DNA of 33,601 bases from Methanomicrobiales archaeon (GTDB lineage: Archaea > Halobacteriota > Methanomicrobia > Methanomicrobiales > Methanospirillaceae), in contig JAAEET010000019.1 in assembly GCA_013415565.1 (NCBI GenBank), forward strand, positions 1 through 33,601, read 5' to 3'. The position numbers and the translations under genes are program-made. Position 1 is the first letter of the stretch, and every line of letters starts with the position of its first letter. A model generated the notes under the pieces. It searched no databases and was not told the DNA's origin. It saw only the letters and a program-made list of their open reading frames with translations. This document shows positions 13,374 to 29,233 of this stretch, in pieces.

Positions 13374-13385
13374 CCTAATCAATGA

Positions 13386-13427
13386 AAGATATATACTATT
13401 CAGTTAAAAACATACCCCTTTATATGA
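13386..13427. promoter_or_regulatory. Divergent promoter region, PRC-barrel gene / M50 protease gene
   Basis: AGATATATACTATT (about 13387-13400) is a strong TATA element that for the plus strand predicts a start near 13417, just before the protease ATG at 13424. For the minus strand, CATATAAAGG (about 13416-13425) predicts a start near 13395, ahead of the PRC-barrel ATG at 13373. The two elements are interleaved within 45 bases, so polymerases on the two strands would compete. Confidence 0.5.
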
Positions 13428-24195: not shown

Positions 24196-26655
24196 TCAGC
24201 CGATGCCCCACTGGGCCAGGGTGGTCCGCGAAGGGTCGACGTCGGTCCATTCCCAGCCGAGCGATTCGATGATCCGGGAGATCGGCTGGCGGAGCGTCTT
24301 TTCAAGCATCAGCTCCCAGTCCACCTGGAATTCCTGCGGCACCTGGTCGCCGTATTCGAAGCAGAGCACATCGGTCTTCCGGTACTTTGCCGTGACGTTC
24401 CTGATATAGACCCGTTTCGGCTTGCTCCCTTTCGCGAACTCCATGCCGAGGTGCTCGTTGGCGTACTTCGCTCCCCTGATGTGGGCGTCATCGGTCTGGT
24501 AGTCGCCAAGGTCCTTCCCGATCCCCCCGGGAATGCCGATCTCATCAAGCGAATACCTCCCGGCCCGGTAGTTCCTGATGACATCCGCAAGGTAGTCCTT
24601 GACAGCGTCGTACTCCTCTCCCTGGAGTATCATCTCCATCACCCGTTTCTGGACCGTCCGGGTGATCTGGGGGGAGTCGCTTCGCCGTATCTCAAAGCCG
24701 ACGACATCGATCTCATCGGCATCCTTTCCTTCCTTCCAGACGAGGTGCCCGGCATACCGCTTCTTTTTCCCGGCCTGGAAAAACCTCCGGTAGATCTTCT
24801 CGAACTTGATGGAGAAGTAATGGCGCTCCGCTCCCAGTTCCCGGAGCGCGAACCCGGCATAGCTCCGGTTGACCGCCTCTTCGATCCCCCGCGCCTGTCC
24901 GATGGTCTCATCGAGCGTCCCGGAAGGTATCAGCACCATGCAGGAATCGGTATCGCCATAGATGACCCGGTAGCCGAGGCCTTCGATGACCTCCCGGGTG
25001 TGCTCGATGATCGCCCGGCCCACCGACGTCACCGCCGCGCCGATCTCCCGGTCGTAGAGCCTGAACCGCGTGTATCCGCTCACACCGTAATACGTATTCA
25101 TGATCACCTTCAGGACATTCTGCTGGAGGTCGTAGAGGACGTACCCGGGCGAGCCGAAGGGGTGCTGATTCCGCTGCTTCTTCTTCTCCTCCCGCTCGAC
25201 CAGGAGATCGCTGATGATGCTCCGCGCAAGACCGTCCGGCTCTTTCCTGAACCGGATCCCGTTCGGCGCCTTCAGCTCTCCTCCCGGGTCCTTGGTCTCC
25301 GGTGAGGCATTGATGGTCATCATGGCCATCGGATACAGGGATTTGAGGTCGAGGACCACCACGTTCTCCCGCACTCCCCTGCTCGGTTCAAAGACCGTTG
25401 CCCCTTCAAACTCCTCGGAGGGGGCATAGCCTTTCGAGGGCATCACATACCGCCCCGAAGCTTTCCGGAGGACGAAGACATCGATGACGCTCGAGGAGTT
25501 CAGGGTTCTTTCAAGCGGACATCCGACGTAACGGGCAATTTCCCGGTAGAACTCGATGATCAGGTTCTTCTGGTTTATGGCCACGCAGAGCTCGACATCC
25601 TTGAAGTTGTACTCGACCAGGAGGCAGGGATCGTTCTTCCAGAGTTCACTGATGGTGCCGGTATACCGCACCTTGGTCTCCCCGACCTCGGCTTCGGCCA
25701 CGGCATCGAGACGGTATGACTCCCGCTGCGTGGCATGCATCTTCCGGTACGCCGAGAGAAGGTCAAAAACAGTTCTGCCCCTGAGGGTGTTTCTCTCGGT
25801 CGGGCCCTCGAGCCGGGCGAGAGAGACGGCCCTGAGTCCCAGGACATCCATCCGTTTTACGAGGTAAGGGAGATCGAATTCCAGGAAGTTCCAGCCGGAG
25901 AGAATGTCCGGATCGCGCTCTTTGATATACGCGGAAAAAGCCTCGAACATCCCGCGTTCGGTCTGGAATGTCCTGATATCATGTGTTCCTGGACGGAAGC
26001 ACCCGTTTTCACGTTCCTCCTGGCCGGAGAGGACCGAGAGGTCGCAGTGGTCTGTTCCCGGGGAGAAAATGAAACTCGTGTAATCCCCGGAAAACGAGTC
26101 CCAGCAGGTGATGCAGATCACCGCATCCCGCGCCGGATCGGGAAAACCACGCTCGTCCTCGCATTCGATATCAAGGATGCAGATTCGCGCCGGGCAGGAG
26201 ATGTCGGCCGCCCGGATCTCGTCGTACGGGCAGACCGGTGACGGGGCAGAGACCCCGCCGGTCAGTCCCTGGTCGATCATGAACCGCGTGGTGAACGGGA
26301 TATCGGCCTCGTAGTGGGAGTAGCGGTCACGGAGCTCCCGGACATCGGTCGGTTTGATGGTATAAAGCCTCCGGAGCGTCTCGCCCCTGATGGATCGGTA
26401 TGCAGCCCCTTCCTCGACCGTCACCTGCGCGGGGTGAGCCCGGTCATCGACCTGTGCCGCCGGGGCGTAGAAGTAGGGACGAAAGCCGGTGACCTGGAGG
26501 TGGCGGGCCGTCCGCCCGGCATCCCGACCGAAGATATGGATGACCGGGCCCTCGGGACCGACGGAGTACTCTACCTGGTTGATATCGATGGTCAGCTCTT
26601 TTGCCGGCAGGCTCTCCGCGTTCCCGCCGCCGGGGCGTTCGTTCTCGCTGTTCAT
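24196..26655 (-). CDS. polB: Family B DNA polymerase I
   Basis: This 819-residue replicative or repair polymerase has an intact proofreading exonuclease (Exo I LDIEC 161-165, Exo II WNFLEFD 255-261, Exo III YNFKD 349-353). It also has polymerase motifs A (DLKSLYP 436-442), B (KVIMNTYYG 516-524) and C (YGDTDS 566-571). The N-terminal domain has FRPYFYAP, typical of archaeal PolB. There is no intein. The open frame extends to 26823 inside mdh, but family similarity and the mdh stop at 26663 support ATG 26655, seven bases after mdh. The C-terminus (LAQWGIG) lacks an obvious QxxLxxFF PCNA-binding box. Confidence 0.96.
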   Translation of the reverse strand: MNSENERPGGGNAESLPAKELTIDINQVEYSVGPEGPVIHIFGRDAGRTARHLQVTGFRPYFYAPAAQVDDRAHPAQVTVEEGAAYRSIRGETLRRLYTIKPTDVRELRDRYSHYEADIPFTTRFMIDQGLTGGVSAPSPVCPYDEIRAADISCPARICILDIECEDERGFPDPARDAVICITCWDSFSGDYTSFIFSPGTDHCDLSVLSGQEERENGCFRPGTHDIRTFQTERGMFEAFSAYIKERDPDILSGWNFLEFDLPYLVKRMDVLGLRAVSLARLEGPTERNTLRGRTVFDLLSAYRKMHATQRESYRLDAVAEAEVGETKVRYTGTISELWKNDPCLLVEYNFKDVELCVAINQKNLIIEFYREIARYVGCPLERTLNSSSVIDVFVLRKASGRYVMPSKGYAPSEEFEGATVFEPSRGVRENVVVLDLKSLYPMAMMTINASPETKDPGGELKAPNGIRFRKEPDGLARSIISDLLVEREEKKKQRNQHPFGSPGYVLYDLQQNVLKVIMNTYYGVSGYTRFRLYDREIGAAVTSVGRAIIEHTREVIEGLGYRVIYGDTDSCMVLIPSGTLDETIGQARGIEEAVNRSYAGFALRELGAERHYFSIKFEKIYRRFFQAGKKKRYAGHLVWKEGKDADEIDVVGFEIRRSDSPQITRTVQKRVMEMILQGEEYDAVKDYLADVIRNYRAGRYSLDEIGIPGGIGKDLGDYQTDDAHIRGAKYANEHLGMEFAKGSKPKRVYIRNVTAKYRKTDVLCFEYGDQVPQEFQVDWELMLEKTLRQPISRIIESLGWEWTDVDPSRTTLAQWGIG

Positions 26656-26662
26656 GGTATGT

Positions 26663-27529
26663 TCAGATGCCAAGCCGGGTGCAGAGATCGGTGACAAAGG
26701 CGCCTGCGGCCTGGAATTTTTCCTGTTCCCAGTGGTCGAGGTGCCATTCCTCGATTTCCCGTATCCCGTTCCTGCCGATGACCGCGGGGACACCCAGGGA
26801 ACACCGGTCAAACCCATACTCACCGTCGAGCACGCATGAGCAGGGGATCAGGGTCCGCTCATCCCGGGCAATGATACGGATGAGATTCGTGATGTGCACG
26901 ACGGGGCCGAACTCGGTTCCGCCCTTGCCCCGGATCACTTCCATGCTCGCGCTCCGGAGGGTTTCGAGAATGGCGTCCCGGGTACCGGGTGCGACCTCCT
27001 GCTCCAGCCGGGAGAAGACCGGCACCTGGTGTTCGCCGTGCTCGCCGATCACCCAGGGTGTGCCGGAAATCCCCTGGTCCTGCAGGACCGATCCGAACCG
27101 GGCGCTGTCGAGCTGCCCGCCGAAGCCGATACACTGCCGGGGCTCAAGTCCCGTATTCCGGCAGAGATAATAGTTATTTGCATCCATCGGGTTGGTCACG
27201 GTGATCAGCACGCCGGAGAAGCGGGAGAGCGCCCGGCTGCAGCTCGCCGCCACCGGCAGGTTGACCGAGAGCAGGTCTGCCCGGGTCCTCACCGCAGGGT
27301 TGCGGGGGAGGCCCGCGGCGAAGACACAGATGTCGGCCTCCGCGGTGTCACGCCAGTCGGTGCTGATACTGATATCGAGCCCGGTGTGGGTAAGGTCGAG
27401 CACCTGCGAGCGGAGGAAGGGCTCCGCAGTATCGAAGAGCACCAGCTCGTCGGCAAGCCCGAGGACGGAGGAGAGGAAAGCAACCTCCCCGCCGATTCGC
27501 CCCACCCCCAGAACCGCGAGCCTGGTCAT
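26663..27529 (-). CDS. mdh: Malate dehydrogenase (LDH/MDH superfamily)
   Basis: This 288-residue NAD(P)-dependent enzyme interconverts malate and oxaloacetate. Seen are the Rossmann loop GVGRIGG (residues 8-14), D33 for NAD, the substrate loop AAGLPRNPAVRTRADLL with Arg at 76, 81 and 83, TNPMDANNYY (112-121), the relay D141-x2-R144, and the catalytic His164 in GEHGEHQVP. The Arg in the loop favours malate over lactate. At about 290 residues it is slightly shorter than the average of its family. ATG 27529 lies about 29 bases from a TATA element shared with pyrD and has no Shine-Dalgarno, suggesting a leaderless message. polB follows after seven bases. Confidence 0.92.
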   Translation of the reverse strand: MTRLAVLGVGRIGGEVAFLSSVLGLADELVLFDTAEPFLRSQVLDLTHTGLDISISTDWRDTAEADICVFAAGLPRNPAVRTRADLLSVNLPVAASCSRALSRFSGVLITVTNPMDANNYYLCRNTGLEPRQCIGFGGQLDSARFGSVLQDQGISGTPWVIGEHGEHQVPVFSRLEQEVAPGTRDAILETLRSASMEVIRGKGGTEFGPVVHITNLIRIIARDERTLIPCSCVLDGEYGFDRCSLGVPAVIGRNGIREIEEWHLDHWEQEKFQAAGAFVTDLCTRLGI

Positions 27530-27553
27530 AATCCTCAATATTGGGGAGCTCTG

Positions 27554-27563
27554 AAATATAATA
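27554..27563. promoter_or_regulatory. Shared bidirectional TATA element, mdh-polB / pyrD-pyrK
   Basis: AAATATAATA (plus) reads as TATTATATTT on the minus strand. Its centre is about 29 bases from the mdh ATG (27529) and about 28 bases from the pyrD GTG (27586). Those are the spacings expected from an archaeal TATA box to the transcript start, so both messages would begin at or next to their start codons. Confidence 0.6.
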
Positions 27564-27585
27564 CAACCACTGGGAGAATCCGACT

Positions 27586-28476
27586 GTGCTGCCACACCTG
27601 CGATCCGGAACCGTGCGAACCGGGGGGGTTACGCTCGGCAACCACCTGCTCCTCGCTGCAGGAATCCTCGGGACCACGGGAGCGTCTCTATCCCGGATGC
27701 TGGAGAGCGGGGCCGGGGGGGTGGTGACCAAGTCCATCGGGCCTTATCCGTGCGAAGGGCATCCGGGCCCCTGCGTGGTCGAAGTCGGGGACGGAGTCCT
27801 CAATGCCATGGGCCTGCCGAATCCCTCGAAAGAATTTTCGGGTGAGCTCGCCGTCCTTGCCGGAAAACCGGTCATCGCCAGCATCTACGGCGGCAATCCC
27901 GATGAGTTCCGTATCGTCGCGGAATGGTTCGCAGGACAGGTTGCCGGCTTCGAGCTGAACCTGAGCTGCCCCCATGCCGCGGGCTACGGTGCCTCGCTCG
28001 GGTCAGATCCCCGCCTGGTGGAGGAGTGTACCCGTGCGGTCAGCGGGCTTCGCCTCCCGGTCTGGGTCAAGCTGACCCCCAACGTCACCGATATCACCGC
28101 CTGCGGTCTGGCCGCGGAGCGCGGGGGCGCATCCGCCATTGTGGCTATCAACACCGTGAAGGCCATGAGGATATCGCCCGAACTCCGGCGTCCGGTGCTC
28201 GGAAACCGGTTCGGCGGGCTCTCGGGAAAAGCCATCTTCCCCATCGCCGTCCGGTGTGTGTACGATCTCTACGGAGCATGCTCGATCCCCATCATCGGCT
28301 GTGGCGGAATTTCAACCGCGCGTGACGTGCTCGAGATGATGATGGCCGGTGCGGCAGCCGTTGAGATCGGGACCGCAGTCAAGGACAATCCCATGATATT
28401 CAGGGATATTGCCGCGGAACTCTATCGTCCGGACGGGATACCGGCCGATGAGCTGGTGGGGTGCGCCCATGAGTGA
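27586..28476 (+). CDS. pyrD: Dihydroorotate dehydrogenase, class 1B catalytic subunit
   Basis: This 296-residue FMN enzyme oxidises dihydroorotate to orotate in pyrimidine synthesis. Family features are LAAGILGTTGASL, TKSIGPYPCEGHPGP, NAMGLPNPS, the active-site Cys in LNLSCPHAAGYGASLG (about residues 125-140), WVKLTPNVTDI, and the C-terminal FMN phosphate segment IIGCGGISTARDVLEMMMAGA. Cys as general base marks class 1, and pairing with pyrK marks subclass 1B (NAD-linked). The GTG at 27586 is chosen because of its TATA spacing. The stop overlaps the pyrK start by eight bases. Confidence 0.95.
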   Translation: MLPHLRSGTVRTGGVTLGNHLLLAAGILGTTGASLSRMLESGAGGVVTKSIGPYPCEGHPGPCVVEVGDGVLNAMGLPNPSKEFSGELAVLAGKPVIASIYGGNPDEFRIVAEWFAGQVAGFELNLSCPHAAGYGASLGSDPRLVEECTRAVSGLRLPVWVKLTPNVTDITACGLAAERGGASAIVAINTVKAMRISPELRRPVLGNRFGGLSGKAIFPIAVRCVYDLYGACSIPIIGCGGISTARDVLEMMMAGAAAVEIGTAVKDNPMIFRDIAAELYRPDGIPADELVGCAHE

Positions 28477-29233
28477 CGGATGCACCCGGGCCTGTGCGAT
28501 CACGGAGATCGTGGATGAGACTTCCACGGTCCGGACCCTGTATTTCGCTGAACCGTTCGATTTCCGGGCAGGACAGTTTGTTATGGTCTGGGTACCGGGA
28601 GTGGATGAAGTTCCGATGGCGCTCTCGTCAGCCCGCTCGATCACCGTCCAGAACGTGGGGGAAGCAACGGCAGCCCTTTGCGGAATGGAGGAAGGCGACC
28701 TGCTGGGGATTCGCGGGCCATTCGGCAACGGATTTCCCGATGACGGTACAATCCTTGCGATAGCAGGAGGGGTCGGCGCCGCGCCCCTCAGGCCCCTGGT
28801 CATGGGGGGCAGGGTGGATACCCTGCTGCTCGGTGCGCGGAGTGCCGGGGAGCTCCTCTTTTCCCGCGACTTTTCCGGTGCCGCCCGGGTCCGCACCGCG
28901 ACCGATGACGGTTCTGCCGGGCACCACGGGTTCGTGACCGATCTCCTGGCCGGGGAAGATCCTGCATCCTTCGAGCGGATCTGTGTCTGCGGCCCGGAAC
29001 GGATGATGCATGCTGTTCTGTGCGCTCTCGACCAACAGGGGATTGCCGGCCGCGGATACTTCAGCCTCCACCGCTACATGAAGTGCGGCATTGGCCTGTG
29101 CGGATCCTGCTGCATCGACCCTGACGGCCTCCGGGTCTGCCGGGACGGCCCGGTCTTTACCGGGGACCTCCTGCTCCGTTCGGAATTCGGTCGCTACTGT
29201 CGCGACGCGAGCGGCAGAAAACGACCGGTCTGA
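28469..29233 (+). CDS. pyrK: Dihydroorotate dehydrogenase electron-transfer subunit PyrK
   Basis: This 254-residue FAD/[2Fe-2S] subunit passes electrons from PyrD to NAD. It shows the FAD domain (FRAGQFVMVWVPG, about residues 32-44; VPMALSS), the NAD domain (LAIAGGVGAAPLRPL, 97-110; ICVCGPERMM, 171-180), and cluster ligands Cys 206, 211, 214 and 224 in KCGIGLCGSC...VC. The ATG at 28469 overlaps pyrD; the longer in-frame opening at 28409 lies inside pyrD and is rejected. The C-terminal tail of about 25 residues is basic. Confidence 0.94.
   Translation: MSDGCTRACAITEIVDETSTVRTLYFAEPFDFRAGQFVMVWVPGVDEVPMALSSARSITVQNVGEATAALCGMEEGDLLGIRGPFGNGFPDDGTILAIAGGVGAAPLRPLVMGGRVDTLLLGARSAGELLFSRDFSGAARVRTATDDGSAGHHGFVTDLLAGEDPASFERICVCGPERMMHAVLCALDQQGIAGRGYFSLHRYMKCGIGLCGSCCIDPDGLRVCRDGPVFTGDLLLRSEFGRYCRDASGRKRPV

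Follow-up and report, generated by a model that had tools for sequence, protein, structure and literature searches.

Can a single TATA element, placed between two divergent genes, serve as the promoter of both? The question is raised by a short spacer in the 33,601-nucleotide stretch of DNA analysed here (the window), contig C51 in the 1.69-Mb draft genome (G000) of a methane-producing archaeon whose closest named relatives are Methanomicrobiales MAGs, including Methanolinea sp. UBA277 and Methanoregulaceae archaea. The minus strand carries mdh (26663-27529), a gene of the malate/lactate dehydrogenase family with its ATG at 27529-27527, followed by polB (24196-26655), a family B DNA polymerase for which an ATG (MNSENERPGG) was chosen as the start; on the plus strand lie pyrD (27586-28476), dihydroorotate dehydrogenase with a GTG at 27586-27588, and pyrK (28469-29233), the electron transfer subunit of that enzyme. 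The initial annotation treated these as two operons, mdh-polB and pyrDK, and the label is fair because both linkages are kept across loci: polB lies downstream of mdh on the same strand in all 76 loci where polB was found, and pyrK adjoins pyrD in 67 of the 72 loci with pyrD.

The divergent spacer between mdh and pyrD measures 56 nt and holds one A/T box, AAATATAATA (27554-27563), which can be read as TATA both ways and reads TATTATATTT in the mdh direction. Measured from its centre, the mdh ATG is 29.5 nt away and the pyrD GTG 27.5 nt away, so the earlier placement of the box at about one TATA distance from both starts is borne out. The description of the box as near-symmetric is weak, as 6 of the 10 positions of AAATATAATA are self-complementary and only the inner TATAATA reaches 6 of 7. 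The flanks are conserved on both sides, and in the window only the putative BRE position in the pyrD direction (GAAA, 27553-27556, plus strand) fits the A-rich BRE learned from these genomes; the corresponding position in the mdh direction, to which AACC (27565-27568, minus strand, GGTT towards mdh) may be assigned, does not match it.

That learned motif, aaAA..TTTATat, is the archaeal BRE-TATA, and it comes from a TATA model built on intergenic-led ATG genes without a Shine-Dalgarno (SD) sequence and pooled from four genomes because the fit for the same-genus genome G007 alone was poor. The gene starts behind the genome statistics come from a home-made caller. The TATA centre peaks 27-28 nt before the start codon, and from this sharp peak we judge that leaderless genes are probably common in the Methanomicrobiales group; a literature search on leaderless genes and promoters of the order found no transcript map of a member. 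Of 515 intergenic-led starts in the window genome, 146 (28%) have a TATA in the -27/-28 slot; SD-like sequences precede 15 of these 146 as against 129 of the remaining 369, and 132 of the 146 leaderless-like genes start with ATG.

Measured against this background, the two genes of the window differ. The best match in the mdh direction, GGTTGTATTATATTT, scores 6.4 at about 30 nt from the ATG, and the only SD-like sequence before mdh is a GAGG 3 nt from the start, too close by the SD peak of the genome, so mdh has the features expected of a leaderless gene. The best match in the pyrD direction, GAAATATAATACAAC, scores 3.7, the start is GTG, and a Shine-Dalgarno-like GGGAG (27572-27576, plus strand) precedes it by 9 nt, a spacing at the edge of the SD position peak; pyrD in the window thus departs from the leaderless profile of a TATA at about 27 nt, an ATG start and no SD. 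The statement in the initial annotation that neither start has a Shine-Dalgarno therefore holds for mdh and fails for pyrD. The same is seen in the window's genus, where pyrD starts with GTG or TTG in 10 of 10 members and is preceded by an SD-like 4-mer in eight (P about 4e-6 against an intergenic background of 0.13, species being treated as independent). Outside the genus, an SD-like 4-mer was found before neither mdh nor pyrD in any of 52 spacers (expected rate 0.13 for each, P about 6e-4), and pyrD there has the leaderless features, with ATG starts throughout except at L262, where the called GTG directly precedes an in-frame ATG.

How unusual is the box? Shuffling the window spacer gives an A/T run of at least 10 centred in this way in 1.0% of cases, and the frequency is 0.23% among all 56-mers of the sampled genome and 1.3% among its intergenic ones; the placement in a single spacer is by itself only moderately unusual. 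All 10 distinct same-genus sequences agree in nine columns of the box (AATATAATA), and of 80 fourfold-degenerate mdh sites compared in nine of those species no more than 2 are invariant. Conservation is a stronger argument against chance than the frequency of A/T runs. Much of the 22 nt next to mdh is invariant in the same 10 sequences too. Here an element, AATCCTCAATATTGGGGAG (27530-27548, minus strand), is nearly invariant in the genus; its AATATT, at about -10 relative to the start of mdh, resembles a proximal promoter element, and the element also contains a near-palindrome, CCTCAATATTGGGG.

The arrangement is not confined to one genus but appears to hold in most of the order. Head-to-head mdh and pyrD with a single A/T box in the middle, at TATA distance from both starts, as in the window, were found in 62 distinct spacers of 47-62 nt from the Methanomicrobiales families f1, f2, f3, f4 and f6; the scope is this order, as a wider search of the class returned only its members. 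On average the centre of the A/T segment is 31 nt away from mdh and 25 nt away from pyrD. Its sequence is lineage-specific (AATATAATA, AATAAATAATTA, TAATAATAAATAA and ATTATTAAA, with AATAAATAATTACAAT as a further form), and its position near the middle of the spacer is constant. Towards mdh, some regula-like loci have low scores (minimum 1.2). The best TATA sites of the two directions overlap in 51 of 62 spacers, moderately above the null of 51%; we rejected this overlap as the main proof of sharing because two leaderless TATA slots must overlap in spacers so short. Nor do we make a strong claim for a general class of shared-TATA divergent pairs of about 55 nt: pairs 40-59 nt apart number 21 of 354 in four genomes, only a small shoulder, and few of the close pairs have a central A/T run of at least 8. 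The window itself holds a second close divergent pair (13374-13423), 50 nt apart with ATG called on both sides and one ATATATA core, and a similar 50-nt spacer occurs in G007 (L130:19399-19448).

The best evidence that each gene needs a box is provided by loci in which the pair has come apart, and from these the box would be shared wherever only one exists. The distance between the genes has grown in Methanoculleus-type genomes (f5, about 130-230 nt), in G014 (122 nt), G119 (198 nt) and G083 (310 nt) and in one Methanoregula MAG (115 nt), and the two are fully separated in several genomes (G105, G092, G107); in genus g29 (G092, G097, G107, G112 and G117) mdh and pyrD are no longer neighbours. 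After the split, Methanoculleus-type pyrD retains TATAATAATA 26.5-27.5 nt from its ATG, and in three splits (L024, L103 and L258) each gene has its own box at about TATA distance. At L258, the 310-nt spacer of G083, two boxes resemble each other (AATAATAAA..ACTC), one near each gene, and look like copies of one ancestral box duplicated when the pair split. Where pyrD is gone, mdh alone retains a recognisable box (L114, L251). Several Methanoculleus mdh promoters score poorly under the TATA model after the split. At several Methanoculleus-type loci (L096, L098 and L268 among them) the TATA of pyrD falls within an inverted repeat of the form GAGnGTATAATAATACnCTC, which may be an operator.

These observations bear unequally on the explanations that can be offered. 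That the box landed by chance in a short AT-rich spacer and is functionless for one of the two genes gains something from the one shuffled spacer in a hundred that yields such a box; its maintenance across five families and in split loci, and the nine invariant columns set against two invariant neutral sites in 80, make this very improbable indeed. If the box were instead an operator for a regulator and not a TATA, the strong conservation within the genus, including the near-palindrome beside mdh, would be accounted for; a box whose sequence varies by lineage with its distance to both starts kept, and which split genes retain at TATA distance, speaks against such a role, which we judge to be quite improbable. 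A regulator common to other genes was rejected on the element searches: CTCAATATTGGGGAG, the core of the mdh-proximal element, has one exact copy only in the window genome, and neither the mdh-proximal nor the TATGGGTATGCTAATAATAAA element has a second good copy in the genomes searched, so no regulon is visible.

A more serious alternative concerns only the window's genus, where the box may serve mdh alone and pyrD may be transcribed from the AATATT (27537-27542, plus strand); the pyrD transcript would begin near 27566 and carry GGAG within a leader of about 20 nt, ahead of an SD-dependent GTG or TTG start, and the two promoters would then overlap with no common TATA. A short SD leader is a live alternative for pyrD in the window because of its weaker TATA match, its GTG/TTG start and the conserved GGAG, and the prevalence of ATG among the leaderless-like genes of the genome (see above) favours it likewise. 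Nine of 10 genus members conserve the AATATT, which scores 3.2 at about -47 to -50, close to the 3.7 of the shared box. It is a poor TATA all the same, and within the genus the shared box stays in the leaderless range of the pyrD start (20-27.5 nt). Moreover, in genera where pyrD lacks an SD a conserved AATATGGG occupies the place of the AATATT, so this element probably serves mdh. We consider a separate, leadered pyrD promoter in this genus possible, with more doubt than belief.

The box is a real, conserved core promoter of a known kind, probably used bidirectionally, and the explanation we prefer, with reasonable though not full confidence, is that of a TATA promoter, ancestral and common to Methanomicrobiales as an order, that serves two leaderless operons in both directions; pyrD may have acquired a leader in the window's genus. 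The proposal of one TATA for two leaderless divergent operons is thus well supported across the order, on box position, the lack of SD outside the genus and retention after splits, and for mdh in the window; it is less secure for pyrD in the window, with its score of 3.7, its GTG and its GGGAG. Binding of archaeal TBP to TATA is nearly two-fold symmetric, and it is TFB that gives the direction. In the mechanism that we propose, the box in the mdh/pyrD spacer would recruit TBP, TFB on one side or the other would set the direction, and RNA polymerase would start about 27 nt away, at or beside the start codon of mdh (continuing into polB) or of pyrD (continuing into pyrK). In the window's genus, pyrD may be transcribed additionally or instead from a box further upstream, which would give it an SD leader of 20 nt; the shared box would represent the ancestral state of Methanomicrobiales. 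The box, its spacing, its conservation and its behaviour after splits are read directly from the genomes; use by TBP and TFB both ways, the transcript ends and leaderless translation are what we infer from them.

A box of this kind would host a single initiation complex at once, so the two directions would compete only if firing were frequent; otherwise mdh-polB and pyrDK would be expressed together at housekeeping levels. The suggestion that transcription of the two operons is mutually exclusive may accordingly apply at most to each initiation event and not to cell states, since the basal firing of bidirectional promoters in E. coli is not frequent enough for competition, and interference arises when one direction is strongly activated (PMC12825309). 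Coordinated low-level expression of both operons also fits.

Two-way archaeal promoters are already known, and what is new here is the order-wide conservation of the mdh/pyrD box together with the split lineages. Warman et al. reportedly described divergent transcription from symmetric bacterial and archaeal promoters in 2021. The mdh/pyrD box resembles these in that one element would be read in two orientations with possible competition between polymerases; the promoters of a follow-up study are sigma-70 promoters of E. coli (PMC12825309). Pyrococcus furiosus has bidirectional BRE-TATA-BRE promoters, for one of which two-way transcription from the same TATA, with 49 bp between the starts, was shown in vitro; the antisense RNA arising from such promoters was taken to be non-functional (PMC6640164). 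The likeness lies in one TATA on which TBP could sit both ways, with starts about 50 bp apart, predicted here from sequence; the difference is that one direction in P. furiosus yields mostly antisense RNA, whereas mdh and pyrD both lead into conserved protein-coding operons in an order-wide layout. The gvpA/gvpD pair of Halobacterium is similar as a case of archaeal divergent operons in a short intergenic region with overlapping elements, but each gene there has its own BRE/TATA and it is the activator sites that overlap (PMC9501494); mdh and pyrD would share the TATA itself.

A box kept at both distances across an entire order, with the splits as natural controls, offers a clean case in which selection seems to have favoured two-way use, and whether operons can be coupled by a shared TATA becomes directly testable. 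The window's genus may show one partner of a shared promoter, pyrD, escaping through a leader and a Shine-Dalgarno sequence. A bolder and rather unlikely reading is that one TBP site has divided initiation between mdh-polB and pyrDK throughout the history of Methanomicrobiales, tying pyrimidine synthesis to an oxaloacetate-using enzyme and to a DNA polymerase, and that the window's genus has partly freed pyrD through its SD leader.
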